Assembly: GCF_001612665.1 (NCBI RefSeq)
Contig: NZ_BDAX01000002.1
Coordinates: forward strand, 1,054,001-1,118,000
DNA length: 64,000 nucleotides
Direction: 5' to 3'
Source: Nocardia alba NBRC 108234
Lineage (GTDB): Bacteria; Actinomycetota; Actinomycetes; Mycobacteriales; Mycobacteriaceae
A program made the translations under genes and the position numbers. Of the stretch, positions 2,167 to 53,367 are shown piece by piece. Under the pieces are notes generated by a model. It saw nothing but the letters and a program-made list of their open reading frames with translations. It had not been told where the DNA came from and made no database searches. Every line of letters begins with the position of its first letter. Within the stretch, counting starts at the first letter, position 1.

Positions 2167-2185
2167 TACCGCTGGCATTACAGTA
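2167..2185. promoter_or_regulatory. TAC-W-GTA operator between doxX and acyl-CoA dehydrogenase
   Basis: TACCGCT-GGCAT-TACAGTA: two boxes with centres 12 bp apart. The second box is embedded in the perfect 13-bp palindrome CATTACAGTAATG at 2176-2188. It lies about 70 bp from the doxX start and 105 bp from the dehydrogenase start, so it could serve both directions. It is one member of a 13-site family in this window. Confidence 0.65.
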
Positions 2186-2290
2186 ATGTTAGACATAACG
2201 CGCGTCCGGTCAATCCGGCGCATCGGGCCATGCCCACGAGACATATCGAACACGACGGCGACACCACGCCGTGAACGAGGAGGCCCTGTC

Positions 2291-3478
2291 ATGACGAGCG
2301 CATCCACCGCCACCAGCGCGGTCACCGCGGAGGACTTCCGCGAAATACTCGCCCAGACCAAGGCTTTCGTCCGCGACGCGGTCGTGCCGCGAGAGCGCGA
2401 GATCGCCGAACAGAACAAGATGCCCGACGAGATCGTGCGTCAGGCCAAGGCCATGGGACTGTTCGGCTACGCGATTCCCCAGGAGTGGGGCGGCCTCGGT
2501 CTCGACCTCGCCCAGGACGTCGAACTGGCCATGGAACTCGGCTACACCACGCTCGCGCTGCGCTCGCTGTTCGGCACCAACAACGGTATCGCCGGTCAGG
2601 TACTGGTCGGGTTCGGCACCGAAGACCAGAAATCCCGATGGCTCGAACACATCGCCTCCGGCGCCGTCGTCGCGTCGTTCGCGCTCACCGAGTCCGGCGC
2701 GGGCTCCGATCCCGCGGCGCTGCGCACCACCGCGGCCAGGTCGGGCGAGGACTGGATCATCAACGGCGAGAAGCGCTTCATCACCAACGCGCCGGTCGCC
2801 GATCTGTTCGTCGTGTTCGCCCGCACCCGCCCCGCCGACGAGGACGGCGCGGGCATCTCGGTGTTCTTGGTCCCCGCCGACACCCCCGGCGTGGAAGTCG
2901 GCCCGAAGGACCGCAAGATGGGCCAGGAAGGCGCCTGGACCGCCGAGGTGTATTTCCGCGATGTCCGCGTCGGCGCCGACGCGCTCGTCGGTGGCAACGA
3001 GGACATCGGCTACCGCGCGGCCATGACCTCGCTGGCTCGGGGTCGTGTCCACATCGCCGCACTCGCGGTGGGCACCGCGCAGCGGGCGCTCGATGAATCC
3101 GTCACCTACGCCGCGACCGCCACGCAGGGCGGTACCCCCATCGGACGATTCCAGTTGGTCCAGGCGCACCTGGCGGATATGCAGACCGGGGTGATGGCGG
3201 GCCGCGCGCTGGTCCGCGACGCCGCGCGGGCGTGGGTGGCGGGCGAGGACCGGCGGGTCGCGCCCTCGGTGGCCAAGCTGTTCTGCACCGAAATGGCAGG
3301 GCGGGTAGCCGATTCGGCCGTGCAGGTGCACGGCGGTACCGGGTATATGCGCGATGTGGCCGTGGAACGGATCTACCGTGATGTCCGGCTGCTGCGGTTG
3401 TACGAGGGCACCAGCGAGATCCAGCGCCTGATCATCGGCGGCGGGCTGATCCGCAATGCCGAGCGGGCCGCGAGGTAA
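2291..3478 (+). CDS. Acyl-CoA dehydrogenase (FadE type)
   Basis: 395-residue FAD-dependent acyl-CoA dehydrogenase that would introduce the alpha-beta double bond into an acyl-CoA. Visible are the flavin/substrate signature FALTESGAGSD in the middle domain and, near residue 371, YEGTSEIQ, where the glutamate is the usual catalytic base position. The length is typical. The ATG at 2291 is preceded by GAGGAGG at good spacing. It is divergent from doxX-ligase with a shared operator between them, and a strong hairpin follows the stop. Chain-length or branched-chain specificity cannot be read from the sequence. Confidence 0.93.
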   Translation: MTSASTATSAVTAEDFREILAQTKAFVRDAVVPREREIAEQNKMPDEIVRQAKAMGLFGYAIPQEWGGLGLDLAQDVELAMELGYTTLALRSLFGTNNGIAGQVLVGFGTEDQKSRWLEHIASGAVVASFALTESGAGSDPAALRTTAARSGEDWIINGEKRFITNAPVADLFVVFARTRPADEDGAGISVFLVPADTPGVEVGPKDRKMGQEGAWTAEVYFRDVRVGADALVGGNEDIGYRAAMTSLARGRVHIAALAVGTAQRALDESVTYAATATQGGTPIGRFQLVQAHLADMQTGVMAGRALVRDAARAWVAGEDRRVAPSVAKLFCTEMAGRVADSAVQVHGGTGYMRDVAVERIYRDVRLLRLYEGTSEIQRLIIGGGLIRNAERAAR

Positions 3479-3483
3479 CAGGC

Positions 3484-3515
3484 GGGTCGGCCACCACCTG
3501 GGTGGTGGCCGACCC
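3484..3515. terminator. Bidirectional hairpin terminator
   Basis: Perfect 15-bp arms (3484-3498 and 3501-3515) with a 2-base gap, placed between the convergent acyl-CoA dehydrogenase (+) and hydroxyisobutyrate dehydrogenase-like gene (-). Confidence 0.8.
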
Positions 3516-3526
3516 GGTCGCCGATG

Positions 3527-4336
3527 TCAGTTCAAGTCGAACGGACCGTCGGCGATCACGGCTCCCAAGCCGCCGAGGTCGATACCCAGCTCGGCGGTCG
3601 CGCTCACGCAGGCCGCGACGTCCTTACGCAGGAACGGCGCGGCGCGTTTCTCGAACTTCGCCAGACCACCGGTACGCCGGATGGAATCGGCCGCGTAGCT
3701 GTTGCCGCTGGCCACCGACAGCGCCTGCAGCAGCTGGTCCTCCTCGATGCCCAGCTTGCGGCCGACCTCGGCCGCCACGGCCACCAGTTGCGCGTTCGCG
3801 GCGAACAGGGCGTTGTTGACCAGTTTCACGCCGAGCGCACTGCCGAGCGCACCCGTGGCCAGCACCGAACTCGAGTAGGCGGACAGTACCGGCCGGACGG
3901 CTTCGACGGCCGCCGACGGTCCACCGAGCAATACCGTGAGCCGCCCGGCGGCGATGTCCTCGGCCGACCCACTGACCGGCCCATCGAGCAGGACCGGACC
4001 GTCGGGTCGCACGGCGGCGAGCTCGGTGATCGTCGAGACCGTGCCGGTCGTGTGCGAGACCATCACCGCGTCGCCTCGCGCCGACGCCAACACCCCGTCC
4101 GGGCCCGAGAGCACCTCACGCAACTGCTGATCCGAGAACAGGCAGGCGATGATCACCTCGCTGGATGCCGCGGCTTCCCGCACCGAGTCGACGACCTCGG
4201 CCCCCGCGGCCCGCAGGCGGTCGCGCACCGCGTCCTGGCGCGCGTAGACCACGGTCCGATGACCCGCCGCCACAAGCCGAACCACCATCGGCTCGCCCAT
4301 CTGGCCCGCTCCGATGAACCCGACAACCTTCGACAT
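3527..4336 (-). CDS. 3-hydroxyisobutyrate dehydrogenase-like NAD(P) oxidoreductase
   Basis: 269-residue beta-hydroxyacid dehydrogenase. The N-terminal Rossmann motif VGFIGAGQMG (residues 5-14) binds NAD(P), and the C-terminal helical domain carries GVKLVNNALF with the family's catalytic lysine. The segment DGPVSGSAEDIAAGRLTVLLGG matches the family substrate-binding signature. It would oxidise a 3-hydroxy acid such as 3-hydroxyisobutyrate, or reduce the semialdehyde. It is transcribed alone, convergent with the upstream acyl-CoA dehydrogenase. Its promoter, leader and first codons closely resemble those of the unrelated aldehyde dehydrogenase at 34220. Confidence 0.9.
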   Translation of the reverse strand: MSKVVGFIGAGQMGEPMVVRLVAAGHRTVVYARQDAVRDRLRAAGAEVVDSVREAAASSEVIIACLFSDQQLREVLSGPDGVLASARGDAVMVSHTTGTVSTITELAAVRPDGPVLLDGPVSGSAEDIAAGRLTVLLGGPSAAVEAVRPVLSAYSSSVLATGALGSALGVKLVNNALFAANAQLVAVAAEVGRKLGIEEDQLLQALSVASGNSYAADSIRRTGGLAKFEKRAAPFLRKDVAACVSATAELGIDLGGLGAVIADGPFDLN

Positions 4337-4409: not shown

Positions 4410-4428
4410 TCCAGTAATGACAACTGTA
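4410..4428. promoter_or_regulatory. TAC-W-GTA operator upstream of the hydroxyisobutyrate dehydrogenase-like gene
   Basis: TCCAGTA-ATGAC-AACTGTA, box centres 12 bp apart, 74 bp upstream of the ATG at 4336. The flanking bases match the site at 34286-34304 closely, including CAACTGTAACAG followed by GTC after one differing base. Confidence 0.65.
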
Positions 4429-4500: not shown

Positions 4501-4531
4501 TACTGTTGCCTTTACGATAAAACATACGATA
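4501..4531. promoter_or_regulatory. Triple operator-like array upstream of the SDR operon
   Basis: Three 7-bp boxes at exact 12-bp period: TACTGTT (4501-4507), TACGATA (4513-4519) and TACGATA (4525-4531). The first matches the window-wide TAC-W-GTA box. The last two are an exact repeat of a variant box. It lies about 90 bp before the GTG start at 4620. The adjacent palindrome ACAGTACTGT (4497-4506) overlaps the first box. Confidence 0.5.
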
Positions 4532-4619: not shown

Positions 4620-5441
4620 GTGACCGGCCGACACAGCGACAAAGTCGCCTTCATCACCGGCGCAGCGCGCGGACAGGGCCGCGCGCACGCCGTGCGACTG
4701 GCGCGTGAGGGCGCCGACATCATCGCTGTCGACCTCGCGGGCCCGCTGCCCGAGGCGGTTCCCTACGATTCGGCCACGCCGCAGGACTTCGAGGAAACGG
4801 TGCGCCTGGTCGAGGCGACCGGCCGCCGGATCGTCGCCGCGACCGTCGACACCCGGGACCTGGACGGGCTGCGCACAGCGGTCGACGAGGGTGTCGCCAC
4901 CCTGGGACGACTCGACATCATCGTCGCCAACGCCGGCATCTGCATCCCGCAGCGGTGGAACGAGATCACCCCCGAGTCGTTCCGCGACGTCATCGACGTC
5001 AACGTCACCGGCACCTGGAATACCGCGATCGCCGGCGCCGACCACATCATCGACGGCGGACGCGGCGGCTCGATCATCCTGATCAGCTCCGCCGCCGGGA
5101 TCAAGATGCAGCCCTTCATGGTCCACTACACCGCCAGCAAGCACGCGGTGACGGGCATGGCCAGGGCGTTGGCCGCCGAACTGGGCAAACACCGGATCCG
5201 GGTCAACAGCGTGCATCCGGGCGCCGTGCTGACCCCGATGGGCAGCGGGGACATGGTCGCCGCGCTCGGCCGCTCCCTCGAGTCCAATCCCCAGCTCGGA
5301 CACATGACGACACCGTTCCTGCCGGACTGGGTGGCCCAACCCGAGGATGTCGCCGCCACGGTCAGCTGGCTCGCCGACGACGACTCCCGCTACATCACCG
5401 CCGCCCAGATCGCGGTAGACCTGGGTTCGACCCAGTACTGA
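4620..5441 (+). CDS. Mycofactocin-type short-chain dehydrogenase/reductase
   Basis: 273-residue SDR with the nicotinamide cofactor motif TGAARGQGRAHA at residues 14-25, the NAG motif (VANAGI), catalytic Ser in LISSAAG and YTASK (Tyr-x-x-x-Lys). The TGAARGQGR wording and the long insertion before the NAG motif are typical of mycofactocin-dependent SDRs, which hold NAD tightly and pass electrons to the peptide-derived cofactor mycofactocin. No mycofactocin biosynthesis genes are in the window. The start is GTG at 4620, preceded by GAGGAG. It is the first gene of the operon running to 10007. The substrate is probably an alcohol or hydroxyacyl intermediate. Confidence 0.88.
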   Translation: MTGRHSDKVAFITGAARGQGRAHAVRLAREGADIIAVDLAGPLPEAVPYDSATPQDFEETVRLVEATGRRIVAATVDTRDLDGLRTAVDEGVATLGRLDIIVANAGICIPQRWNEITPESFRDVIDVNVTGTWNTAIAGADHIIDGGRGGSIILISSAAGIKMQPFMVHYTASKHAVTGMARALAAELGKHRIRVNSVHPGAVLTPMGSGDMVAALGRSLESNPQLGHMTTPFLPDWVAQPEDVAATVSWLADDDSRYITAAQIAVDLGSTQY

Positions 5442-10065: not shown

Positions 10066-10863
10066 TCAGACGAAGTCGGAGCCGCCGTCGACGTTCACGT
10101 TGGCACCGGTCATGTACGAATTGCGGCGCGAGGCCAGGAACGCGGCGACCGGGCCGATCTCCTCGGGCAACCCGGCTCTCGGCATCTGCGCGGGGTGGCC
10201 GAAGTGCGTGCCGATCGCCTCCATGAGCCGGTAGGGATCATCGTCGTCGATGCCGACCGAACGTGCCCAGCCGGTGAGCGCGGGCGTGACGAAAGTACCC
10301 GGCGACACCACGTTGACCAGGATCTCCTCCTCGGCCAGCAACAGCGAGAGATTCTTCGAAATGCTGGTCACCATCGCCTTCGCCGCGGTGTAGGCGACCA
10401 GGGATGTGGTCTGGCGCTGGGTCGAATGCGCGGAGAAGTTCACGATCCGTCCCCATTCAGCCTTGCGTAGCAGCGGCAGCGCCGCGTTGACGCAGTGCAC
10501 GATGCCGAGGGCACCGTGGTCGACCGCCTCGTGCCACTGATCGTCGGACAGTTCCTCGACCGTGCCCTGGACGTTCGGCCCGACGGTGGTGATCAGCGAG
10601 TTGAGTTCGCCACCCCATCGTTTCCCCAGTTCGGCGAAGACCGAGGCCACCTGGCCGGTATCGCGCACGTCGGCGACGAGACCGATCGCGTCGGCACTGC
10701 CTCGCTGCGCCAGGTCGGCGCTCGCCCGCTCGACATCGTCGGCCGAGCGGCCGACCACCGCGACCCTGGCCCCTTCTTCCGCCAGGCAGCGTGCTGTGGC
10801 CAGCCCCATTCCACGGCTACCGCCGACAACGACCGTCGCCGCGCCACGCAATCCCAAATCCAT
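10066..10863 (-). CDS. Short-chain dehydrogenase/reductase
   Basis: 265-residue SDR. The glycine motif is VGGSRGMG (residues 13-20), the catalytic Ser region is NFSAHSTQ, and the active-site Tyr-Lys pair is in YTAAK. The C-terminus has the usual NVDGG. The NAG motif is replaced by TTVGPN, a mild departure. The ATG at 10863 has GAGGTGG seven bases upstream. It is transcribed alone from a promoter holding a near-perfect operator at 10959-10977. The substrate is unknown. Confidence 0.88.
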   Translation of the reverse strand: MDLGLRGAATVVVGGSRGMGLATARCLAEEGARVAVVGRSADDVERASADLAQRGSADAIGLVADVRDTGQVASVFAELGKRWGGELNSLITTVGPNVQGTVEELSDDQWHEAVDHGALGIVHCVNAALPLLRKAEWGRIVNFSAHSTQRQTTSLVAYTAAKAMVTSISKNLSLLLAEEEILVNVVSPGTFVTPALTGWARSVGIDDDDPYRLMEAIGTHFGHPAQMPRAGLPEEIGPVAAFLASRRNSYMTGANVNVDGGSDFV

Positions 10864-10958: not shown

Positions 10959-10977
10959 TACTGTAATGCATTCAGTA
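10959..10977. promoter_or_regulatory. TAC-W-GTA operator upstream of the SDR at 10863
   Basis: TACTGTA-ATGCA-TTCAGTA, box centres 12 bp apart. The first box is inside the perfect 15-bp palindrome GCATTACTGTAATGC (10955-10969). The site is almost the same sequence as the one at 16128-16146 read on the other strand. Confidence 0.7.
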
Positions 10978-15128: not shown

Positions 15129-15222
15129 CGACCAGCACCTCGACATCCGCAAGAACCTGAAAATCATACTGTTGCCACAACCATAGGTGAGACAATTCGA
15201 TCCCGAGTGCAGATCAGAGATA

Positions 15223-15241
15223 TACTGTAACTATTACCGTA
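15223..15241. promoter_or_regulatory. TAC-W-GTA operator at the thioesterase start
   Basis: TACTGTA-ACTAT-TACCGTA, box centres 12 bp apart. The last base is the A of the thioesterase ATG. AACTAT six bases before that ATG could be the -10 box of a leaderless promoter, so a bound protein would block transcription directly. Confidence 0.65.
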
Positions 15242-16127: not shown

Positions 16128-16146
16128 TACTGTATGCATTACAGTA
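16128..16146. promoter_or_regulatory. TAC-W-GTA operator upstream of amidohydrolase (best copy)
   Basis: TACTGTA-TGCAT-TACAGTA is the only site where both boxes match the consensus without a mismatch. It is a perfect inverted repeat with 7-bp arms and a 5-bp spacer. It lies 30 bp before the ATG at 16177. Confidence 0.75.
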
Positions 16147-16176
16147 ATTAAGACTGCAGTGATGGAAGGGAACCAG

Positions 16177-19860: not shown

Positions 19861-19869
19861 GATTTTCTC

Positions 19870-19989
19870 CTACCAGTCATTGGTCATCAGCATCCGCAAC
19901 TGGATGAGGAACATCAGCAGCAGAAACCCATAGATGGTGAATTGGAAGACGATCAGCGCATGCTTGCGTCTACGGTCTTGCTCGTTCAT
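19870..19989 (-). CDS. 39-residue single-helix membrane peptide
   Basis: MNEQDRRRKHALIVFQFTIY starts the protein; residues 12-33 form one hydrophobic helix and the end is MLMTNDW. The basic N-terminus predicts a cytoplasmic N-terminus. GAGGAGAA lies eight bases before the ATG. It fits exactly between the AAA+ gene (22 bp gap) and the polytopic protein (9 bp gap), all on one strand, so it is very likely translated. A small assembly or stabilising subunit is likely by analogy with other membrane complexes. Confidence 0.7.
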   Translation of the reverse strand: MNEQDRRRKHALIVFQFTIYGFLLLMFLIQLRMLMTNDW

Positions 19990-20011
19990 GGCAGCGTTCT
20001 CCTCGAGGTGG

Positions 20012-22329: not shown

Positions 22330-22375
22330 GGAGGATCTCCGCGGGTGCACGCTGGTTCACGAACCGTACACATGA

Positions 22376-34220: not shown

Positions 34221-34285
34221 CCGCGCCTCCGCACTCACATCGAACCCGCTGCCGCTCACACAGTTACACGTACAACAGATATCGT

Positions 34286-34304
34286 TCCAGTAATACCAAC
34301 TGTA
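34286..34304. promoter_or_regulatory. TAC-W-GTA operator upstream of aldehyde dehydrogenase
   Basis: TCCAGTA-ATACC-AACTGTA, 66 bp before the ATG. Both boxes equal those at 4410-4428; only the spacer differs. Confidence 0.65.
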
Positions 34305-35031: not shown

Positions 35032-35041
35032 CTCGGATTCC

Positions 35042-39610: not shown

Positions 39611-39618
39611 GAATTGCC

Positions 39619-40659
39619 TCACCTACAGATCGGCGATTGCTGAACGGTTCCGGCCGGGGTGGCCATTCTGACGATCGCCGGGATCAATTCCGAGAGCGCT
39701 GGGATCGCGGTGAAGCCGAGATTGCAGAGATAGACATTGAGGTTCGCGCCTTCCTGGCTGACGCGGGCGATGCCCTTCAACAGCGCGGGCAGGTTGAAAC
39801 CCAGGTAGGCGAACTGATCCTTGTTCTGCTCGAAATGCCGGGTGAACCCAGGTTCCCGGTTCATCAGTCGCTCGAGCGCGGGCCGGTCCTCGGCGACGAC
39901 GGTCGCCATCCGGTCCGCGACTCCCGAGACCTCGGTCAACGTCGTCATCAGTTCGTCACGGTGACGCGCCAGCCCTTCGACGATGGTCCGGGTTCGGCTC
40001 AGCAATGTGCTGAGTTCGGCCCGTCGACCCGCCAGGTTCTGCACGACCTGGTTGAGATTGGTGATGACCGCGCCGAGCACCTGATCCGGACCGGCCAAAG
40101 ACTGTGCCAGCGTGGACATCTGCTCGATCAGCCGGGTCAGCGAGCCGACGTCGCCCTGCAACGCTTGCACGAGTGCGGCGGTGACATTGTCGACCTGCTG
40201 GGGGTCGAGACCACTGAACAGTGGTTCGAATCCGTTGAGCAGCGCCGAGAGGTCGAAGGACGGCTCGGTGCGCTCCACCGGGATCTCCCCGTCGCTCGCG
40301 AGTACGGAGTCCACGCGGTTCTCGCCACGGGACAAACCGAGATAGCGCTGTCCGATGACGTTCTGATAGGTGATGGCGGCCACGGTGTCGCCGTAGAGGT
40401 GCTGGGCATCTTGAACCCGAAACCGAACCCGGGCTCGAGTGCCGGCGAGTTCCACCGCGTCGACACGTCCGACGCGTACCCCCGCCATTCGCACGTCGTC
40501 GCCGACCCGCAACCCGGTGGCATCGGTGAAGATCGCCGAATACGGCTTCGTCGAGCCGTCGATGCCGCGATTCAGGGTCACGAAGGTCATGGAGATGAGG
40601 GCGAACGCCACGACGAGAAAAACACTGAGTCCGGCCACCGAACGACGATGCTGGTTCAT
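39619..40659 (-). CDS. mceB: MceB family lipid-import subunit
   Basis: 346 residues, the usual MceB size. One helix (LSVFLVVAFALISMTFVTL), then the MCE domain YSAIFTDATGLRVGDDVRMA and GVRVGRVDAVELAGT. The MceB-type segment AAITYQNVIGQRYLGLSRGE is clear. The C-terminus has the paired Cys typical of the family (NLNVYLCNLGF, QQSPICR). The ATG overlaps the mceA stop. Confidence 0.9.
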   Translation of the reverse strand: MNQHRRSVAGLSVFLVVAFALISMTFVTLNRGIDGSTKPYSAIFTDATGLRVGDDVRMAGVRVGRVDAVELAGTRARVRFRVQDAQHLYGDTVAAITYQNVIGQRYLGLSRGENRVDSVLASDGEIPVERTEPSFDLSALLNGFEPLFSGLDPQQVDNVTAALVQALQGDVGSLTRLIEQMSTLAQSLAGPDQVLGAVITNLNQVVQNLAGRRAELSTLLSRTRTIVEGLARHRDELMTTLTEVSGVADRMATVVAEDRPALERLMNREPGFTRHFEQNKDQFAYLGFNLPALLKGIARVSQEGANLNVYLCNLGFTAIPALSELIPAIVRMATPAGTVQQSPICR

Positions 40660-41921
40660 CGTGGAGCACCTCCTGTTCCGGGGACACCGGTGGTGAGTAG
40701 TTGGGCCAGCACCTGTTCCGCGCTGTTGGCGCCGCCCGCGAGCACCCGGCCGATGAGGTCTTGCATCTGCGGAGTCAGCACGGGTTTCGGTATGGAGCGA
40801 GGATCGAGCGACGCGGGCAGCGGCTCGGCCGAGGTCGTCAGCGGCGCTGTCGCGCAGCTCGGGCCCGCGAGGTCGCCGTAGCGGGGGCAGTCCGCCCGTG
40901 TGTACGCGGTGTCGGGGGTCAGCCTGATCTGGAACTTTCCGGTCCCGTTCTTGGTCTCCTCGTTCCAGAATTCGGCGAACCACACGTCGGAGAGGTGCTT
41001 GATGCTGCCCACGATGGGACCGAAGTTCGAACTACCCGCGGCGAAGACATCCAGGACCGGAGTGAGCTGGTCGGTGACTGTCACCATCTCCTCGACGTGA
41101 CGGTCCAATCCGCCGCCGACGGTCGACAACGTGGCGGTGCCCGCCGAGAGCAGGTTGCGCAGCTCGGCCTCCTGCTCGACGACAGCACGCATCGGGACGA
41201 CCGCGGAATGCAGGACATCGAGGAGATCCGGTGCCGCCGAGGCCAATCCCTGCACCGATTCGGTCAGCGCGGTCATCGTCGACGGCTCCCCCGGCGGCGC
41301 GATCTGGGCGGCGAGTTCGGTGGTGATGCGGTCGAGCTGGGCACCGGCGCGCACGAGGTCGGCGCCGCGCCGGTCGGTGGCCTTGGCGACCGCGGCGAGC
41401 ACTCCCACCGTGTCACTCGTGCTGATCCGCGCCGTCGCCGCCACGATGGTCCGCAGCTTGGTCAGCGCCGTCTGCAATTGCACCGTCGACAGACTCGTAT
41501 CCTGCTGGATCTGCGCGCCGGCCCGCAGCGGTCGTCCGGGACCGTTGTCGACCAGCTGCACCGAGGACACCGCGAAGATGTTGCTGGGGACAACCCGTGC
41601 GGTCACCGAGTCCGGAATGCTCACCAGCAGATGAGGTTCGAGCTCCAGTTTGGCTCGATTGCGGCCACCGTTGATCGATGGCGTCACTTCGGCGACAGTC
41701 CCCACCAACACACCGCGGAACTTCACGTCCGAGTTGGGCGGGAGCCCATCGCCCACCTGCTCGAGCAGGGCAGTGATCTCGGCCTTCTCTTCGAAGGACC
41801 CGGTCGATTTCATGTACACGAGGGTGAGCCCACCGACGATCAGCGCGAATGCAACCAATCCACGCAACAGCAGGGACAATTTCGACGGACCGCGTCCGTC
41901 CTTGTCGAACAAGACCGACAT
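40656..41921 (-). CDS. mceA: MceA family lipid-import subunit
   Basis: 421 residues. One N-terminal helix (LSLLLRGLVAFALIVGGLTL) and an MCE domain (EITALLEQVGDGLPPNSDVK, FRGVLVGTVAEVTPSINGG). A helical domain and a tail with TRADCPRYGDLAGPSCAT follow. It is the first mce gene after the two permeases, one base after the yrbEB stop. It is expected to be anchored in the cell membrane and to project to the mycomembrane. Confidence 0.9.
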   Translation of the reverse strand: MSVLFDKDGRGPSKLSLLLRGLVAFALIVGGLTLVYMKSTGSFEEKAEITALLEQVGDGLPPNSDVKFRGVLVGTVAEVTPSINGGRNRAKLELEPHLLVSIPDSVTARVVPSNIFAVSSVQLVDNGPGRPLRAGAQIQQDTSLSTVQLQTALTKLRTIVAATARISTSDTVGVLAAVAKATDRRGADLVRAGAQLDRITTELAAQIAPPGEPSTMTALTESVQGLASAAPDLLDVLHSAVVPMRAVVEQEAELRNLLSAGTATLSTVGGGLDRHVEEMVTVTDQLTPVLDVFAAGSSNFGPIVGSIKHLSDVWFAEFWNEETKNGTGKFQIRLTPDTAYTRADCPRYGDLAGPSCATAPLTTSAEPLPASLDPRSIPKPVLTPQMQDLIGRVLAGGANSAEQVLAQLLTTGVPGTGGAPR

Positions 41922-41922
41922 C

Positions 41923-42777
41923 TCACCCTCCCAGCCGTGCGCTGGCCCCGATGCCCCACACGGCGATGGTCAGCATGAGATTGACGACGATCATCACCGA
42001 GATCGCCGAGCGCATGGCCCGGCCCGCCGCGATGCCGACACCCTGTGGCCCACCCGCCGCGTAGTACCCGTAGTAGCACTGGATCGTGGTGGTGATCAGT
42101 ACGAAGACGATCGCTTTGCCGAGCGAGTAGATGATGTCGGGCCCGTTCAAGACGAGCTGGAAGTAGTGACGATACGTCCCGATCGACAGCCCACCCGACA
42201 TACCGACCACCATTTCGACGGCCACGTAGTTGGCCGCCAAACAGAGCAGATACAGCGGCACGATCGCTACCACGGAGGCCAAGAGCTTGGTGCTGACCAG
42301 GTAGGGGATGGATCGGATCGCCATCGATTCCATGGCGTCGATCTCCTCGGAGATACCCATCGCGCCGAGCTGTGCGGTGAACCGGCAACCCGCCTGGGCC
42401 GCGAAGGCCAGTGAGGCCATGATCGGCGCCAACTCGCGCGTCGAGGCCGTCGAGGCGACCAAACCGATCGCGGGCTCCATGCCGAGCAGGTGCAGGGCGT
42501 TATAGCCTTCCAGCCCGATAATCGCGCCACCGGCGGCGCCCAGGATGATGATGACTCCCGCGGTTCCACCGCCGACGACGATCGATCCGTTTCCCCACGC
42601 GATATCGGACAGGGTCCGCATGAACTCGATACGGTAATTTCGGAGCATCACCGGAATCGATGCGGCGGCACGTACGAAGAAGGTGAACATATGCCCGAGC
42701 CGCATGAATACGACGCCGAACTTCTTCGCATATGTCGTCACCAACCTGGTGCCGAACGGATGATAGGTGGATGCCAT
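41923..42777 (-). CDS. yrbEB: YrbE/MlaE-type permease, second subunit
   Basis: 284 residues with about five to six membrane helices. The cytoplasmic coupling motif is EEIDAMESMAIRSIPYLVST, which contacts the ATPase (MceG/MlaF type) in this transporter family. No ATPase gene is in the window, as expected since MceG is usually encoded elsewhere. It overlaps yrbEA by one base. Confidence 0.93.
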   Translation of the reverse strand: MASTYHPFGTRLVTTYAKKFGVVFMRLGHMFTFFVRAAASIPVMLRNYRIEFMRTLSDIAWGNGSIVVGGGTAGVIIILGAAGGAIIGLEGYNALHLLGMEPAIGLVASTASTRELAPIMASLAFAAQAGCRFTAQLGAMGISEEIDAMESMAIRSIPYLVSTKLLASVVAIVPLYLLCLAANYVAVEMVVGMSGGLSIGTYRHYFQLVLNGPDIIYSLGKAIVFVLITTTIQCYYGYYAAGGPQGVGIAAGRAMRSAISVMIVVNLMLTIAVWGIGASARLGG

Positions 42778-43694
42778 TACAAGCCCTGCCTGGGAAACAA
42801 CATCATGAACAGCTGCGTGAACAAAACATTGACGATCATGAGCAACAGAATCGAGGAGACCACCGTTGAATTCACCGAATTCGCGACCCCGGCGGATCCC
42901 CCCTTGGTAGTCAGACCCTTATGACAGGCGACCACCGCGACGATCGCGCCGTAGACCACCGCCTTCACGAGAGTCAAGACCAGATCCCCGACCGTGGCGA
43001 ACGAGGCGAACGTCGCGACGAAACTTCCGGGCGCACCGCCCTGAGCGAAGACATTGAAGGCATAGCCCGCCACGAAACCGACGAAGCATACGACCCCGGT
43101 GAGCGAAACGCCGATGACGATCGCGGCCAGGAACCGGGGAACCACCATGCGCCGGATCACCGAGACGCCCATGATCTCCATGGCGTCCAGTTCCTCCCGA
43201 ATCTTGCGCGATCCCAGGTCAGCGCAGATGGCAGACCCGACTGCCGCGGCCATCAGCAGCGCCGCCACCATCGGGGCGCCCTGCCGGATGACGGCCAACC
43301 CGCTGGCGGCCCCCGCCAGCGAGGTCGCACCGACTTGGCCTGCCAGCAGCCCGAACTGAATGGAGAGTGTGACCCCGATCGGCAAAGCGACAAAGATTGT
43401 CGGCAGCACCGCCGCGGAAGCCATGAAAGCTCCCTGCGCCAGGGTTTCCCGCACAGCCAGCTTTCCGGTGAAGAGGTCGATCAGCAGATATTGCACCGTA
43501 CGAACACCGAGGACGAATTGGCCACCGACCGTATCGATGGCGACACCGGGATGCCGACCGAGATATCCACGAAACCATGCGGCGACCTCCCTGCTCGCCG
43601 GCATGGCAGACCGCTCGGAGCTCACCGCTCGCCTTTCACGGCCCTTGCCTGCTGCCGGATCGAATCCGTTTACCATCGGTTCGCGCGTCTCCAT
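42777..43694 (-). CDS. yrbEA: YrbE/MlaE-type permease, first subunit
   Basis: 305 residues. A 45-residue basic N-terminal extension precedes the usual YrbE start (VGGQFVLGVRTVQYLLIDLF). The coupling motif EELDAMEIMGVSVIRRMVVP and about five helices follow. The ATG at 43694 may be too early; an in-frame ATG at 43676 is equally possible. It is the first gene of the nine-gene mce operon. The nearest operator is about 460 bp upstream at 44158. Confidence 0.92.
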   Translation of the reverse strand: METREPMVNGFDPAAGKGRERRAVSSERSAMPASREVAAWFRGYLGRHPGVAIDTVGGQFVLGVRTVQYLLIDLFTGKLAVRETLAQGAFMASAAVLPTIFVALPIGVTLSIQFGLLAGQVGATSLAGAASGLAVIRQGAPMVAALLMAAAVGSAICADLGSRKIREELDAMEIMGVSVIRRMVVPRFLAAIVIGVSLTGVVCFVGFVAGYAFNVFAQGGAPGSFVATFASFATVGDLVLTLVKAVVYGAIVAVVACHKGLTTKGGSAGVANSVNSTVVSSILLLMIVNVLFTQLFMMLFPRQGL

Positions 43695-44342
43695 TCGGGT
43701 AACACCACCTATTTGCCATCCCGAGTGTGCGGGACGTCACAGGGTCTAGTCAATGAAATTCCGAAATAAATTTTCAGGCCATTTTATGGGCATAATTGAA
43801 ATGCACGACAATATGCCCGCCTACAAAATAGGCGAGCTTCATCGTCGCGTCGGCGCGTATTTCCGATCGACAAATAATATGTAGAAAATTCAGGTCTATT
43901 GGACTGCCCGATCAGTCGGGCACCCCTCCTATCGCGGCGTCGCAGGAATTTCCGGGTCGCGTCCAGCAGCGCGCGGACGGAGTCCACCGTCGATACCAGC
44001 TCCGGCGAACCATCCCGCTCCCTCCGACCTTCACGCTACGACCACCATTCGCCCACCAACCCTCGCGGTTGCCACTCGAGATCGGCTACCCGGTCAGCCT
44101 CGGACCCACGGGCGGCGTACGCTGTTCGCAGCTGCCCGATACCAACGTGTGCAAGCATACTGTATAGCTTACAGTTAGTCACGCAGAAGGGTCGGCTCCG
44201 GCCTGCTGGTGTCCGCCGAGACGTCGGCGAGCGCGAACTGCCCGGCCGACTGCACCAGTGGATCGCGTGGGAACGGAACGTGGTCTCCACTACAGCTGCT
44301 GGAGCCGCGAGGCGCGTGACTCGATTACAGCAACGACCCCGG
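43695..44342. other. 648-bp stretch without a convincing gene; long leader of the mce operon
   Basis: No frame has family similarity or a good ribosome site. The part at 43745-43900 is AT-rich for this genome and holds a small hairpin (CGCCTA/TAGGCG at 43818-43834). From the operator at 44158 leftwards a 40-codon frame (MLAHVGIGQLRTAYAARGSE and on) ends at 44036; it could be a leader peptide or a remnant. Confidence 0.5.
44158..44176. promoter_or_regulatory. TAC-W-GTA operator upstream of the mce operon
   Basis: TACTGTA-TAGCT-TACAGTT, an inverted repeat with one terminal mismatch. The MFS gene reads towards it from the right and ends at 44343, so the only unit it can start is the leftward mce operon. 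Confidence 0.65.
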
Positions 44343-45950
44343 CTAGGGGTTGATCTCGATCGCTTTCCCGGTGACGTGGACCGGCGCGACGTCCGAGGCG
44401 AGCTCGGACGTCTGCGGGCCCGCCTCGACGTCGGCTGCGGCGAGGCGCACCCGACCGGGCGCCCAGAAGACGACGACCGCGGCCGCGGCGAGCACTCCAG
44501 CCGCCAGCACCATCGCCGCCGCGCCCGACCCGTGCACGAAGGCCTCCTCGATCCGCTCGACGAGCGGACGCGCCGCGGGCCCGATAGCCTCCGCTGCCGC
44601 CAGCGCCGCGGCGGGCGAGGCCACCACGGGGGCGCGTAGCTCGAGCGGCAAGGCGGCCACCACCGGCTCGATCCGCTCCCGATACCCGGCGGCGAGCAGA
44701 CTCCCGACAACCGCGATCCCGATCGCGGCGCCCACCTCACGAGTCGCGTCGTTGACAGCCGCGGCGACGCCGTGTTTGTGCGCAGGCACCGCCCCGACAA
44801 TGGCCGCCGTGGCCGGTGTCGCGGACAAGGCGATACCGAGGCCGATCACGACCAACGCCCACACCAGCTCGGAGTACCCACCGTGTACCGACAGACGGGC
44901 CAAGCCGTACATGCCCACCGCGGTGACGGCCAGTCCCGACGCCATCATCGCGCGCAACCCGATGCGTTCCGACAGCCAGGGGGCGACCGGCGAGACCAAC
45001 ACGAGCGGCACCATGATCGGCGACACCGCCAGCGCCGCGCCCAGCGGACCGTATCCGAGTACCAGCTGCAAATACTGCACGACCAGCATGAAAACGCCGA
45101 ACACCACCAGAAACTGCGCGGTGATGGTGAACGCGCCCGAGCCGAACTTCCGGTCGGCGAAGAGCCGCACATCCAGCATCGGCGCATCGGCCCGCAATTC
45201 CACCGCGACGAACAGCGCACTCGAACCCAGACCGACCGCGAGGAGAACGAGCACGAGCGGATCGCCCCACCCGACCAACGGCACCTCCGACGCCGCGACG
45301 ACCACCGAGCCGACGGCCACCGCCCCGACCACCGCGCCTGCCGTATCGAACCGGACCCGCGACTCCTCGACGGATTCGGCCACCGTGCACGCGGCGACCG
45401 CCAGGACCAGCCCGGCACCCGCCATCGCGATGAGAATGGCCGTCCACGACCACCACATGAGCAGGACACCCGCACCCAGCAGACCGATCGCACCACCACT
45501 GGCCACTGCCGCCGCCCAGACTCCGACCGCCAGCCCACGACGCGATGCGGGAAATCCCGCGGTCAGCAACGACAAGGTCGACGGCATGACCAGCGCGGCG
45601 CCGACACCGGTGACCGCACGCGCGGCGATGAGCCAGACCGGCCCCGACACCACCAGCGGGATCAGCGAACCGGCGGCGAGAACGAGCAAACCCGCCACCA
45701 TCATCCGGCGGCGCCCGTACCGATCCCCGAGCGCGCCACCCGGCAGCACCAGGCACGCCAGCGCGAGGGTGTAGGAATCGGTGATCCAGGTCAATTGCTG
45801 CTGCGACGCGCCGGTCGCGGTCGCGATGCTCGGCAGGGCCCCATAGAGCGCGACCATGCCCGCGATCACGAGCCCGACCGCGAGGCACGCCACGATCAGC
45901 GCCCAGACACGGGCGGCTCCGAGCCCGGCCGAATCGTGATTCCCTGCCAT
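44343..45950 (-). CDS. MFS transporter of the DHA2 (14-helix) drug exporter type
   Basis: 535 residues with 14 predicted helices. Motif A is PGGALGDRYGRRRMMVAG after helix 2, and motif C of antiporters is seen as ALVMPSTLSLLTAGFPASRR. The start ATG at 45950 has GGAGG upstream. It is a single-gene unit with an operator 33 bp upstream, divergent from the molybdenum enzyme. By family it exports organic compounds with proton influx. Here it may pump out the pathway substrate or a toxic intermediate. Confidence 0.92.
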   Translation of the reverse strand: MAGNHDSAGLGAARVWALIVACLAVGLVIAGMVALYGALPSIATATGASQQQLTWITDSYTLALACLVLPGGALGDRYGRRRMMVAGLLVLAAGSLIPLVVSGPVWLIAARAVTGVGAALVMPSTLSLLTAGFPASRRGLAVGVWAAAVASGGAIGLLGAGVLLMWWSWTAILIAMAGAGLVLAVAACTVAESVEESRVRFDTAGAVVGAVAVGSVVVAASEVPLVGWGDPLVLVLLAVGLGSSALFVAVELRADAPMLDVRLFADRKFGSGAFTITAQFLVVFGVFMLVVQYLQLVLGYGPLGAALAVSPIMVPLVLVSPVAPWLSERIGLRAMMASGLAVTAVGMYGLARLSVHGGYSELVWALVVIGLGIALSATPATAAIVGAVPAHKHGVAAAVNDATREVGAAIGIAVVGSLLAAGYRERIEPVVAALPLELRAPVVASPAAALAAAEAIGPAARPLVERIEEAFVHGSGAAAMVLAAGVLAAAAVVVFWAPGRVRLAAADVEAGPQTSELASDVAPVHVTGKAIEINP

Positions 45951-45982
45951 CCGACCCTCCACAAACACACTGTTGAAGCTAT

Positions 45983-46001
45983 TACTGTAATAGTTCCAGT
46001 A
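45983..46001. promoter_or_regulatory. TAC-W-GTA operator upstream of the MFS exporter
   Basis: TACTGTA-ATAGT-TCCAGTA, 33 bp before the ATG at 45950. The first box is within ATTACTGTAAT, a perfect dyad. Confidence 0.65.
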
Positions 46002-46258
46002 ACCGTAGCATCTGTCGGTTGCCGACACCTCGAATGATCCGATCACCGGGCCCGGACCTGCACGAACCGGCCCATGTGCGGACCACGGATCTTCGGCCCC
46101 GAGCACATCGCCACAGCTCTACTCAGCACTCGAATGCACCACGCCCGGCAAGCGGACAGGACCCCGGTCGAGATGCCCGAGAGGCCCGGGTGACGCGGCG
46201 CGGACAGCCGGAACCGAAACGCCTGCGCGACAACCATATCGACCAAAGTTGTCGCATC

Positions 46259-46277
46259 AACTGTAATTCCAACTGTA
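46259..46277. promoter_or_regulatory. TAC-W-GTA operator upstream of the molybdopterin oxidoreductase
   Basis: AACTGTA-ATTCC-AACTGTA: here the two boxes are an exact direct repeat at 12-bp period. It is 135 bp before the chosen GTG at 46412 and 48 bp before an upstream ATG at 46325. It is separate from the MFS operator in the same 460-bp divergent region. Confidence 0.6.
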
Positions 46278-46411
46278 CTATTGTCGACGCAACGACTCGA
46301 TGCTAGGGTTCGCAGCTACGCGCAATGGTGACCACGGCCGGTTCGGGACTCACCGAATCTTGCGCCGGAGGCGTCGAAGTCGCTCATGAATCTCACGTGG
46401 ACGGAGCGTTC

Positions 46412-48625
46412 GTGACTACCAGATCCGATTCCGAGGTCACGTCGAGAGCATCGATGACCAGTGGCACGGCCCCCCTGCCGGTAGTCGAGGCGAAGACCTT
46501 CTGTGGCATCTGCGAGGCATCGTGCGGCCTGATCGCCACGATCGACAACGACAGAGTGACCGAACTGCGCCCCGATCCGGATCACCCGACATCGCGCGGC
46601 TTCGCCTGTTCGAAGGGCGTGATGTTCCATCACGTGGCGGCCGACCCGGACCGGGTATTGCACCCGATGCGCAGAAAGACCGATGGGTCCTTCGCGCGAG
46701 CGACATGGGAAGAGGCACTCGACGATGTCGGCCGCCGACTCGAGTCGATCCAACGGGCACATGGAAATGAATCGATCGGTATCGCCTACGGCAACCCGGT
46801 CGCATGGAGTTTCGCCGCGGCCGTGACAGCGAGCGGTTTGGCTACGAGCCTCGGAACCCGACATCTTTACTCGTCGGCCTCCGTTGACGTCAACAACTAC
46901 TTCGCGGCAGCCGACCTGCTCTACGGCAACACGCTGATCTATCCGCTGCCGGATTTCGTCGCGACCGACTTCGCGTTGATCATTGGGGCCAATCCTGTTG
47001 TCTCCCACGGCAGTATGGTCACCACCGGACGTATCCGCGATGTACTCGTCGGAATACCCGAGCGCGGAGGCCGGGTGGTGGTCGTCGACCCGCGCCGTTC
47101 CGAAACAGCACAACTGTTCGAGCATCTCCCGATCCGAGCGGGTGCCGATCCGTGGTTGTTGGCCGCGATGCTGCGGGTGATCTTCGATGAAGACCTCATC
47201 GACGTCTCGGTTGTTCGCGCGCAGACCTCGGGAATCGCGGGACTGCGAGACATGGTCGCGCGCTTCGACCTCGACCGTGCCGCGGTGGAGACCGGCATCG
47301 ACGCCGCAGTGATCGCCGAGCTGGCGCGGGCACTCGCGACGGCGCGAACCGCGTGCGTGTACGGCCGCTGCGGCGCCTCGCTCGGCCGGTATTCGACGCT
47401 GACCAAATTCCTGCTCGACGCGTTGGCGATCGTCACCGGAAACCTGGACAGACGTGGAGGTATGGTGTTCGGTCACTCCATGATCGAGGCAAAGGGCACC
47501 GGCGATCTGGGTGGCTCGGGACGCAACCGCTGGAAAACGCGCGTGCGCGGGGTCGGCGAGGTGAACGGGACCGCACCGATGGCCTGCATGGCCGAGGAGA
47601 TCACCACGCCGGGCAAGGGGCGATTGCGCGCGCTGATCGCGCTCTCGACCAACTTCGTGAGTAGTGCACCCGGTAGCAGTCAGACGATTGCCGCGCTAGA
47701 CGAACTCGAGCTGATGGTGTCGCTGGATCCCTACCTCACCGAGACGAGCAGCCGTGCGCATTGGGTTCTTCCACCCACCGTCTGGCTGGAACGCGAACAC
47801 CTGCCGATCTTCACCCAGACACAGTCCACGGTTCCCAATGCCCAGTGGGTCGCTCCGCTGGTACCGGCGCCCGGCGAAGCACGCGACGACGCGTGGATTC
47901 TCGAGCAGATCGCTCATCGGATAGGTGAGACGACACTCGGCATACCCGGCGCGAAGCTGCTGGCGAGAATCGGAATTCGATTCAGCCCTGCGCAACTCAT
48001 CGATCTTGCCGTTCGTCTGGGTCCCCACGGCGATCTGTTCGGCCTGCGCAGGAAGGGACTCAGTCGGCGTAAGTTGATGGCGACCGAAGGCGCGGTGAAA
48101 CTGGCCGATGACTGCCCGGTCGGGGTATTCGACGCGAAGATCCAACATACCGATCGACGCGTTCACCTTCTCCACGCCGAGATCGGGTCGGAGATCGACC
48201 GGCTGATCGACGGAATCGATGACCCCCGGTATCCGCTGCGACTGTTCAGCGTCAGGGAATTACGGTCGCACAACTCGTGGCTGCACAACATCCCCAGATT
48301 GATGTCCGGAGATCGCCGTTGCCGCGCGCTGATGTCGCCCACCGATGCCGCGGCGGCCGGTTTACACGACCGCGACGACGTCACGATCGTCTCCGCGTGG
48401 GGCGAGGTACGGGTCCCGATGGTGGTCACCGATGAGATCGCCGATGGGTCGGTCGGCCTGACCCACGGGTGGGGACACGAGGGCGGTTGGCGCACCGCGA
48501 TCGCGGCCGGCGGTGCCAACTACAACGTTCTGACTCCCAACGACACGAACCAGATCGACCGGCCCTCCGGCAACGCGTTCCTCAACGGAATTCCGGTCAC
48601 CGTCACTCGATCGGACGAGCGATGA
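46412..48625 (+). CDS. Molybdopterin (bis-MGD) oxidoreductase
   Basis: 737 residues. The N-terminal 4Fe-4S motif is FCGICEASCGLI with the fourth Cys in GFACSKG. The molybdopterin-binding regions follow (FALIIGANPVVSHGSM, VVVVDPRRSETAQLFEHLPI), and the C-terminal domain has ELRSHNSWLHNIPRLMSG and NDTNQIDRPSGNAFLNG. The position usually giving a Cys or Sec ligand to Mo reads SSASVDVNNYF, so the ligand may be Ser or Asp. Its size resembles mycobacterial Rv0197. The GTG at 46412 has GGAG five bases upstream; an ATG at 46325 would add 29 residues. It overlaps the reductase gene next door. Confidence 0.88.
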   Translation: MTTRSDSEVTSRASMTSGTAPLPVVEAKTFCGICEASCGLIATIDNDRVTELRPDPDHPTSRGFACSKGVMFHHVAADPDRVLHPMRRKTDGSFARATWEEALDDVGRRLESIQRAHGNESIGIAYGNPVAWSFAAAVTASGLATSLGTRHLYSSASVDVNNYFAAADLLYGNTLIYPLPDFVATDFALIIGANPVVSHGSMVTTGRIRDVLVGIPERGGRVVVVDPRRSETAQLFEHLPIRAGADPWLLAAMLRVIFDEDLIDVSVVRAQTSGIAGLRDMVARFDLDRAAVETGIDAAVIAELARALATARTACVYGRCGASLGRYSTLTKFLLDALAIVTGNLDRRGGMVFGHSMIEAKGTGDLGGSGRNRWKTRVRGVGEVNGTAPMACMAEEITTPGKGRLRALIALSTNFVSSAPGSSQTIAALDELELMVSLDPYLTETSSRAHWVLPPTVWLEREHLPIFTQTQSTVPNAQWVAPLVPAPGEARDDAWILEQIAHRIGETTLGIPGAKLLARIGIRFSPAQLIDLAVRLGPHGDLFGLRRKGLSRRKLMATEGAVKLADDCPVGVFDAKIQHTDRRVHLLHAEIGSEIDRLIDGIDDPRYPLRLFSVRELRSHNSWLHNIPRLMSGDRRCRALMSPTDAAAAGLHDRDDVTIVSAWGEVRVPMVVTDEIADGSVGLTHGWGHEGGWRTAIAAGGANYNVLTPNDTNQIDRPSGNAFLNGIPVTVTRSDER

Positions 48626-51457: not shown

Positions 51458-51597
51458 CTCCGGGCACCTACCGGGTCGACAGCGTTCATTCGTGCTCGGT
51501 CACTACACCGATTATTTCGGTGAGCCGTTCAACCGTGAGATCTTCGGACCGTCGACGGCGGCGGTGTCCATATTTTCCGACATGCGTGGGTACCGAA

Positions 51598-52644
51598 TCA
51601 GCTTTCACCGCGGCGATATCGACCGATGATGGGCTCGAGTTCGGCGGGAGTCGCACCGTGCAGGATCACCGCGTCGGCCCCGTATTCGAATTCCTCGCGG
51701 ATACGATCCACACATTGTTGAGCGGACCCCCTGGCAGAAGGTTCCAGCCACTCGTCCGGGATCAAGGTCGCGATGTGCTCGATCTGATCGGCGGTAGCCT
51801 TGTGGTCTATGCCGCCGGGTATCGAATTGACCACCGGATCCTCGCGAAAGCGCTGTAGTACAGCACGATCCCAACCGTTGGTATCGACCAGCAGGTCACC
51901 ATAGCCCTGTAGGTAAGTGGCCAGTCTCGCGACCGTCTTCTTCAGTCGTAGTGCCTCTGGCAGGTGGTCACCGACGGTGGCAAAGCACGACCATACCTTC
52001 ACGCTGTCAGGATCTCGGCCCGCCTTCTCGGCGGCGTTCTTCACGATATCGACGCTGCGCCGCAATGTCTCCGGGGTGAAGTAGGTGTGCAGGATGACAT
52101 CGTCGAACTCCCGACCGCCCAGGGCGAGTGTCTGTGGTCCGAATGCCACCAGGCCCAGCCTGATATCTTCGTCGAAGTCTGGATCCAGGAACAGGACCGG
52201 GTACTTTCCGATCGGTCCGTCGTGGTTCAAGACGATCTCGCCGTGCCAGAGTCTGCGCATCACCTGCGCGAAATCCTCCATCTGAGCGGTCGTCACCGCC
52301 GGCACTCCGAAGGCGGAATACATGGCCGCGACACCGCGCCCCAGTCCGAGAGTGAATCTACCGCCGGACAACCGGTGCATCGTGGTGGCCCACGATGCGG
52401 TGATCAACGGATGGCGTGTGTTGTGATTCGTCGCGGCGGTGGCGATCTGCATGCGGCTGGTGACCGCGCAGGCCGCGCCGACGAGCGAGGATGCCTCCTT
52501 GACATTCCATCGCTCCGAGATGAACGCAGTGCCGAACCCGAGTTCCTCACCCTGCCGAGCCTCGTCCATCAAGGTGGCGGGACCCTGACCTCCCGCGCCC
52601 GCCAACAGGTAATACCCGAGTTCGTTCAGTACTCGTTCACTCAC
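51598..52644 (-). CDS. F420-type luciferase-like (LLM) oxidoreductase
   Basis: 348 residues with a TIM-barrel LLM fold. It starts LNELGYYLLAGAGGQGPATL and has GFGTAFISERWNVKEASSL, RHPLITASWATTMHRLSGGR and FTLGLGRGVAAMYSAFGVPA, the usual deazaflavin-site regions of mycobacterial F420 oxidoreductases. It would transfer a hydride between F420 and an organic substrate. It is convergent with the gene before it. No terminator is evident. Confidence 0.9.
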   Translation of the reverse strand: MSERVLNELGYYLLAGAGGQGPATLMDEARQGEELGFGTAFISERWNVKEASSLVGAACAVTSRMQIATAATNHNTRHPLITASWATTMHRLSGGRFTLGLGRGVAAMYSAFGVPAVTTAQMEDFAQVMRRLWHGEIVLNHDGPIGKYPVLFLDPDFDEDIRLGLVAFGPQTLALGGREFDDVILHTYFTPETLRRSVDIVKNAAEKAGRDPDSVKVWSCFATVGDHLPEALRLKKTVARLATYLQGYGDLLVDTNGWDRAVLQRFREDPVVNSIPGGIDHKATADQIEHIATLIPDEWLEPSARGSAQQCVDRIREEFEYGADAVILHGATPAELEPIIGRYRRGES

Positions 52645-52937
52645 TGATTCACTGTCCTTTCGACGTGACTACCGGGCGAACCCGGTATGGCTCCTGATGA
52701 GCGGCAGGGTGGCGGGCGACGCAAAACCGGGTGGCGCCTGACAGACCGCCGGTACCGCGTTGAGGGCTTTCCTGGATTGACGCCGCAGGCATGCAGACTG
52801 GTTCCACCCGGCTCGACACGCTGCCGTCAACCGTTCCTGGTCGTGTACGGGAAGTACCGGCGGGGAGAACAAGAACACCGTGGTGGCGACATTCTTCCCA
52901 CTGGCAAGCTCGTCGCCTCGAAGCCCAAGCCGTGGCA
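52645..52937. other. Gene-poor stretch with possible remnants
   Basis: Open frames on both strands lack family features, ribosome sites and consistent codon use. It may be a decayed gene or an old insertion. No terminal inverted repeats were found by eye. Confidence 0.4.
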
Positions 52938-53231
52938 TCAGGGGATCACCCAATTTCGTTCACAAGGGAGTCGCGGCAGCAAGAGCGCGTCGGTTCTGCC
53001 GCGCACAGTGGCGTTGCCGTTGGCGTGCTCAGCATTGAACGCGATGATGAACCTGCGTGCGGCACTGGCACAGGCCTCATAGAACAGATCCAGACACTCA
53101 CCACCGACGTCGGTCCAATGTATTTGGATCACAACATCAGGCTCTGTTGTGCGCAGGATGAAGCCCTCGGACATGAGATCGACCAAACGATAGGTGCCGA
53201 AGAGAAATTCCGTCGCGCTCGAGCAACGCAC
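52938..53231 (-). CDS. Hypothetical protein, low support
   Basis: A frame from GTG 53231 gives 97 residues (VRCSSATEFLFGTYRLVDLM, then SEGFILRTTEPDVVIQIHWT, and ending CERNWVIP). The middle looks like a normal small globular protein (alternating hydrophobic strand, then FYEACASAARRFIIAFNAEH). No clear ribosome site. It reads away from the operator at 53349, which is the only reason to expect expression. An internal ATG before SEGF would give 78 residues. Confidence 0.3.
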   Translation of the reverse strand: MRCSSATEFLFGTYRLVDLMSEGFILRTTEPDVVIQIHWTDVGGECLDLFYEACASAARRFIIAFNAEHANGNATVRGRTDALLLPRLPCERNWVIP

Positions 53232-53348
53232 CCATTGACGGGGTCCACATTGCCGCAGCCGATCGGTGGACGCGGACGCCGCAGTACGTGACGCCGGACG
53301 ATCACCGCCGGACGACAGCGAAGCGACAAACGATATTTCGATCCGAAC

Positions 53349-53367
53349 TACTGGATTACTTACAGTA
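53349..53367. promoter_or_regulatory. TAC-W-GTA operator in the gene-poor stretch
   Basis: TACTGGA-TTACT-TACAGTA, one mismatch in the first box, correct 12-bp spacing. The gene it controls is unclear: the leftward hypothetical protein is the only candidate, because the esterase on the right ends here. Confidence 0.5.

Follow-up and report, generated by a model that had tools for sequence, protein, structure and literature searches.

What regulates a large catabolic island in which one short DNA element recurs before gene after gene? The question is raised by a 64,000-nucleotide stretch of Nocardia alba NBRC 108234 (the window; C2:1054001-1118000 of a 7.28-Mb, 62-contig genome, plain numbers below being window positions), for which a preliminary description listed 13 copies of an operator, TACWGTA-N5-TACWGTA, and proposed one regulator for a dispersed catabolic regulon. 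The operator is real: the boxes are as described at all 13 positions, and the earlier observation is confirmed. Computationally, it has a fixed spacing, is located at promoters, is conserved in relatives, and is both adjacent to and co-occurrent with a family of TetR genes. We consider it likely that the operator marks a local, autoregulated TetR-family catabolic regulon under the putative DNA-binding proteins g025 and g033; the regulatory pair is most likely these two related TetR-type proteins, which are encoded nearby, outside the window. The idea of one regulatory system for a dispersed catabolic regulon is thereby supported.

To place the operator in its surroundings, we counted its occurrences in the window and in a 108-kb island (C2:1000001-1108000), and made our own gene calls (139 proteins, designated g with a number) with a simple caller whose called starts are uncertain. 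Allowing up to 2 mismatches, the pattern starts at 13 positions in the window, against a mean of 0.005 and a maximum of 1 in 200 runs of a first-order Markov control. These starts comprise 11 of the sites listed earlier plus 16140 and 53361, because the arrays at 16128 and 53349 each have a third box; the 13 listed sites themselves include one without mismatch, five with one, five with two and two, the weakest, with three (2167 and 4501). The island holds 32 starts (4 exact, 15 with one mismatch, 13 with two) where 0.02 are expected, and 43 at up to 3 mismatches where 0.43 are expected, and the 20 kb before it and the 30 kb after it hold no operator, even at 3 mismatches. The 32 starts collapse to 25 places, of which the window contains 11 and the sequence before it 14. 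The earlier term "window-wide" understates their extent. The spacing claim held without change: among box pairs in the island with at most 2 mismatches in total, 25 lie 12 bp apart, and each of the other distances between 7 and 45 has 2 pairs at most.

Across the genome the same search returned 33 places, 32 of them within C2:1000898-1107379 (about 107 kb). The reversed control pattern matched 35 times, so the genome total, no higher than its control, is not a signal; the signal lies in clustering and promoter position. The only match outside the island, C19:113338 (2 mismatches), lies just 3' of an open reading frame (ORF) resembling enoyl-coenzyme A (CoA) hydratase and looks like chance. Matches do not fall in coding and promoter sequence at equal rates: 92.5% of the island is called coding, and only 4 of the 32 site centers lie in called ORFs, three of them close to where g040, g080 and g104 start and the fourth within the g092 call.

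Base counts over the 32 sites, taken on both strands, give TACWGTA boxes with a favored A after the left box and a favored T before the right box. Each of the 4 exact sites is a 19-bp inverted repeat, TACTGTA-N5-TACAGTA, and where both box centers are A or T (21 sites), 11 are T/A, 4 are A/T and 6 are direct. The main form is therefore a 19-bp inverted repeat, as for a dimer. Three-box arrays occur at 7 of the 25 places under the 2-mismatch rule. Flanking 7-mers with at least 5 matches to the box are found at -12 in 10 of 32 sites and at +24 in 9 of 32, compared with 0 to 2 at 22 other offsets, counts that include the seven three-box arrays and hence are not independent of them.

We compared this form with known operators. 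The KstR2 operator follows a pattern like AnCAAGnnCTTGnT, which has no copy in the 108-kb island; the KstR operator TnnAACnnGTTnnA likewise has none there, in line with the preliminary statement that the sites match neither. The inverted repeat also resembles the LexA box of E. coli, and the sites could on that account be read as LexA-like SOS boxes, a reading to which we give almost no credence. Actinobacterial LexA boxes differ from the E. coli box, the operator boxes recur in arrays with a 12-bp step, none of the named genes is recognizable as an SOS gene, and the gap from CTGT to ACAG is 7 in all 4 exact sites, compared with 8 in the LexA box CTGT-N8-ACAG. The resemblance is to the E. coli consensus TACTGTATATATATACAGTA, as given in the accessible part of PMC4576408. 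Readings of the sites as Mce3R, KstR, KstR2 or LexA operators were each tested and rejected.

To find candidate regulators, we searched the genome with TetR_N, obtaining at least 150 matches (150 of 394 first-look candidates were scored); among the matches listed, three are in the island: g025, g033 and g087. The first two lie before the window, g025 at C2:1006093-1006806 (48 kb before) and g033 at C2:1016648-1017568 (37 kb before). They are 61% identical, each carries TetR_N and TetR_C_1 above the curated cut-offs, and the genome contains no further protein close to them (the next-best match has E 1.3e-10); the closest solved structures to g033 are tetracycline repressors. An exact site, 1016443, starts 205 bp before the g033 start, and g025 is the third gene of the run g023-g024-g025 behind another exact site, 1003961. 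Among orthologues, the palindromic operator is found near its own gene in 56 of 70 g033-type promoters and directly before g025-type genes in 0 of 13. In 12 genomes with both paralogues, 32 to 35 of the 36 residues of the helix-turn-helix stretch (residues 39-74) are identical between the g025 and g033 types, compared with 81 to 101 of 152 to 154 residues in the C-terminal part. The segment VGVTSIYWYFR is invariant in all 82 sequences, partly by construction because the loci were in part picked by the pattern IYWYFRK. A lysine/alanine-rich C-terminal tail is present on g033 (L017:16648-17568) and absent from g025.

The gene mix had been likened to that attributed to Mce3R, with the remark that no such double-TetR gene is present. 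The remark is right for the window; single-domain TetR candidates, g025 and g033, lie in the same island just outside it, each with a single TetR_N match, whereas Mce3R has two TetR units in one polypeptide. Control by an Mce3R-type protein encoded elsewhere appears very unlikely to us. The gene mix does recall Mce3R targets, and at least four reading frames of the double-TetR type are present in the genome (C1:32039, C2:823521, C6:175699 and C10:161362), of which those on C6 and C2 match the Mce3R structure 9b7y (E 2e-32 and 9e-33). All four are far from the island, however, with no site at up to 2 mismatches in the 1.7-2.2 kb around each, and only one operator match in the genome lies outside the island. 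The form of the operator argues against the likeness too: according to the accessible text of PMC11667970, Mce3R is a single double-TetR polypeptide that recognizes two sites, each asymmetric and 25 bp long, with 53 bp between them, whereas the island sites are 19 bp long and favor an inverted repeat.

We next consider conservation, using the best 80 of 301 related loci from a genome-contig search (Nocardia, Mycobacterium and Mycolicibacterium; 1.52 Mb). The operator occurs in them 42 times at up to 1 mismatch and 190 times at up to 2, and the reversed motif 2 and 8 times, respectively. Certain loci, such as L022 and L038, overlap and contribute some of their sites twice to these counts, and many of the species are close kin, so the counts overstate independence. 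For orthologous promoters we used 83 loci (the 80 plus L109-L111), dropping beforehand genes with fewer than 4 orthologues. For the 12 genes with a site of their own, 187 of 381 orthologous promoters carry a site and 0 carry the reversed motif; for 21 genes without one, the count is 30 of 459 (1 reversed), several of these through promoters shared with divergent genes. Sites are well kept before the g033 type (56/70, as above), g055 (51/54), g059 (12/14) and g076 (39/47, mostly a site in common with the adjacent TetR gene). Among 50 mycobacterial loci, 48 have a site at up to 2 mismatches within 350 bp before the TetR gene, the two exceptions being L039, with a 3-mismatch site, and L055, with none. 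In an alignment of the upstream regions of 22 of these 50 loci, conservation apart from the gene start is found mainly in one block, which reads TACGATAGGTATTACAGTA or nearly so. Conservation of the sites at promoters, which the preliminary description had made a test of its reading, is thus seen at many orthologous promoters in Nocardia and Mycobacterium.

Operator and TetR genes also occur together. Among 59 genomes of the genus (N. alba included), g025/g033-type TetR genes are present in 8 and the exact TACTGTAN5TACAGTA in the same 8, and the other 51 have neither. Among 121 genomes of the family, 14 have the TetR gene, 15 have TACKRTAN5TACAGTA and 12 have both, the operator being present in 3 of 107 TetR-negative genomes (G085, G101 and G176). 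Fisher's exact test gives 5e-10 (genus) and 3e-12 (family) for TetR and operator and 7e-8 (genus) for g087, values that ignore the tree and ignore that sites and genes sit in the same island. In G176, an exact site stands some 120 bp in front of a TetR gene whose product is 36% identical and retains the VGVTSIYW helix. Exact or near-exact palindromes also precede distant TetR genes at L104:2483-2523 and L103:2549-2567, in genomes without the island TetR at the cut-off used; the operator type may therefore be wider than the g025/g033 subfamily.

Several observations weigh against control by g025 and g033. Some sites of the island are rarely kept at orthologous promoters (g020 4/54, g023 0/7, g027 0/6, g054 5/57, g063 10/56), probably in part because those genes lie inside operons elsewhere. 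L036, L039 and L046 have no site at up to 2 mismatches, and L055, from M. lepraemurium, has lost the site before its TetR gene. In the family sample, G077 has the TetR gene without TACKRTAN5TACAGTA, TetR-positive G088 has only weaker sites (three of them near the TetR gene), and in G084 the operator is on another contig than the TetR gene. Conversely, G085 has two sites before a 26%-identical TetR whose helix differs, and in G101, which has an exact site, the 5 kb retrieved gave no match to a TetR protein of the island. Because operator and TetR genes sit in the same island, finding them together links the motif no more closely to these genes than to the island as a whole, and g087 is itself found in 11 of the 59 genus genomes, including all 8 with the operator.

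This last distribution, together with the operator that lies between g087 and g088, raises the alternative that the operator is recognized by another island regulator, for which the in-window TetR g087 is the simplest candidate, and that g025 and g033 are no more than targets of that regulator. We regard this as unlikely. Of the 51 genomes that lack the exact operator, 3 also have g087, and its contig is not that of the sites in G003, G014 and G031; mycobacterial loci keep the operator with no g087 match within up to 10 kb on each side, and it is the g033-type gene that has the operator before it in most orthologous promoters.

Under the preferred reading, with g025 and g033 as regulators, the mechanism can be sketched from established TetR biology, from which we infer dimer binding, repression, release by an intermediate and autoregulation. 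Both proteins would bind TACTGTA-N5-TACAGTA as dimers, with one helix-turn-helix per 7-bp box, and would then prevent transcription at some 25 places spread over 107 kb, repression being favored here over activation. A CoA thioester or another intermediate of the degraded lipid-like substrate might release them. Three-box arrays could represent two overlapping dimer positions; how such sites are filled is among the most uncertain points, as is the supposition that both paralogues use the same sites. A further, more tentative possibility, which we think more doubtful than probable, is that the two paralogues, with nearly the same DNA-reading helix and diverged ligand domains, share the 12-bp-period box code as competing homodimers or as a heterodimer. 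If so, the pair would be the unfused counterpart of the double-TetR design of Mce3R, and one operator code would integrate two metabolite signals, the three-box sites setting the logic.

In the preliminary description, every window site except the one at 53349 had a gene for catabolism, transport or redox chemistry downstream of it. This fits our gene calls if some over-extended starts are allowed. The weak operator at 2167-2185 (3 mismatches) lies before the likely true start of the acyl-CoA-dehydrogenase-like g068, whose called start looks over-extended. Two sites lie between the divergent genes g069 (3527-4336, minus strand; NAD_binding_2 by Pfam, 3-hydroxyisobutyrate-dehydrogenase-like) and g070 (4620-5441, plus strand; like short-chain dehydrogenases/reductases (SDRs), named by reading and BLAST cluster): an operator with 2 mismatches at 4410-4428 and a weak three-box array, TACTGTT/TACGATA/TACGATA, at 4501-4531, whose first pair has 3 mismatches. 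TACGATA is also a box variant before the mycobacterial TetR gene. Orthologous promoters carry a site in 3 of 4 cases for g070 and 1 of 2 for g069. The 1-mismatch operator at 10959-10977 is upstream of the SDR-like g076 (10066-10863, minus strand).

At 15223-15241 an operator with 1 mismatch lies at the 5' end of g080 (15187-16116, plus strand), an acyl-CoA thioesterase with the Pfam domain 4HBT_3. An in-frame ATG of this gene begins on the last base of the operator (15241; window 15223-15243) and is probably its start, an arrangement that would be consistent with a transcript lacking a leader or with a block acting right at the start. Next comes the three-box array at 16128-16158, the first pair of which is an exact TACTGTA-N5-TACAGTA; it directly precedes g081 (16159-17433, plus strand), which clusters by BLAST with the Amidohydro_2 protein g020. 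The gene g087 (22520-23128, minus strand), known by its TetR_N profile match, is the only TetR found in the window and either a rival regulator or a target; the operator at 23369-23387 (2 mismatches) separates it from the divergent g088 (23467-25635, plus strand), a 722-residue protein both halves of which match acyl-CoA dehydrogenase models. The block 19123-23128, which ends with g087, also encodes a VWA protein, a CbbQ-type AAA ATPase and two proteins without a Pfam match, and contains no operator; related blocks adjoin the TetR island in L024, L038 and L042.

The operator at 29998-30016 (2 mismatches) lies between a minus-strand cytochrome P450 gene and a plus-strand SDR-like ORF (30044-30838). 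The call g092 (28655-30862, 735 aa) is over-extended and overruns the P450, whose paralogues have 402 and 426 residues. This site, TACTGTCAAGCTTTCTGTA, lies in an identical stretch of at least 35 bp at 29984-30018 and at C2:1045881-1045915; the stretch stands before the P450 genes g092 and g058, members of a single BLAST cluster, and represents a duplicated promoter. The shared stretch could suggest that the sites arose by the copying of a small repeat element, or as remnants of duplication, with no regulatory role. We find this explanation barely tenable, as the sequences flanking the other sites show no relationship, flank positions are low in information, and sites stand at promoters and are kept across genera while the adjacent DNA diverges.

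Further along, the operator at 34286-34304 (2 mismatches) is 27 bp before g094 (32697-34259, minus strand), which by reading resembles aldehyde dehydrogenases (ALDHs) and has a site in 6 of 10 orthologous promoters. The yrbE/mce-type operon g095-g103 (34363-43694, minus strand; assigned by reading and BLAST clusters, g095 having no Pfam match) has a 1-mismatch operator in the gap before it, at 44158-44176. The MFS_1 transporter gene g104 (Pfam; 44343-46046, minus strand) has an operator with 1 mismatch at its 5' end (45983-46001), and another with 2 mismatches (46259-46277) lies between it and the molybdopterin oxidoreductase gene g105 (Pfam; 46325-48625, plus strand). The last member in the window is the three-box array at 53349-53379 (1 mismatch), which has no clear target gene.

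To gauge what the island degrades, we scanned 40 of the 139 called proteins against Pfam, 3 of the 40 giving no match; the yrbE/mce, SDR, ligase and ALDH names come instead from reading and local BLAST clusters. The domains found include Amidohydro_2, Bac_luciferase, CoA_transf_3, HpcH_HpaI, an ABC branched-chain-type transporter, a Pyr_redox_2 reductase and Isochorismatase; Rieske with KshA_C, thiolases with ChsH2-type domains, acyl-CoA dehydrogenase, alcohol dehydrogenase and Carboxyl_trans; and P450s, thioesterases, MaoC, MFS and molybdopterin oxidoreductase. No NCBIfam model scored above its cut-off for the 10 proteins tried (matches at E ≤1e-30). The combination of a Rieske/KshA_C enzyme, ChsH2-like domains with thiolases, P450s and CoA-transferases suggests a polycyclic or branched lipid, and judging from these domains the substrate is likely a lipid, steroid-like compound or terpenoid. 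A rubber-degradation idea (LcpR) led nowhere in a literature search.

We regard the regulon as genuinely new, of a known kind, with an unusual regulator pair, and we know of no name for it. No description of the operator or of g025 and g033 was found among the results listed in our searches of open-access literature, or in the accessible portions of PMC3511530, PMC2277422, PMC4482099, PMC11667970, PMC1995591 and PMC4576408. The result provides a testable operator code and a specific candidate regulator pair for a large catabolic island that is common in parts to some Nocardia and many mycobacteria. The code shows which genes belong to one pathway, and a paralogue pair on one operator would be a clean case for how duplicated TetR repressors divide sensing.

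Among known systems, the tetracycline repressor (TetR_C_1 class) shares with g025 and g033 both the TetR_N and TetR_C_1 domains and a palindromic operator. It differs in that g025 and g033 score only 78.5 and 71.8 bits against a TetR equivalog cut-off of 265, in that two paralogues here face about 25 operators of a catabolic island where the tetracycline repressor controls one pump gene, and in the box centers 12 bp apart and the three-box arrays. QacR resembles the present system in having an operator longer than one dimer site, a 28-bp palindrome bound by a tetramer according to the accessible part of PMC4482099, whereas here the boxes form regular 12-bp arrays of two or three. KstR, the regulator of cholesterol catabolism in mycobacteria and relatives, is a TetR-family repressor of a large lipid-degradation regulon with a conserved autoregulatory palindrome, TnnAACnnGTTnnA (as far as the text of PMC1995591 is accessible), and thus offers a parallel in both regulon and autoregulation; g025 and g033 nonetheless score only 23.3 and 17.3 bits against the KstR cut-off of 280. 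Mce3R of M. tuberculosis, finally, parallels the island in the TetR-type control of an mce operon and lipid-metabolism genes and in placing two helix-turn-helix units on each operator. Here there are two separate single-TetR genes, and the operators of the two systems are set apart by their described size and symmetry rather than by their letters.

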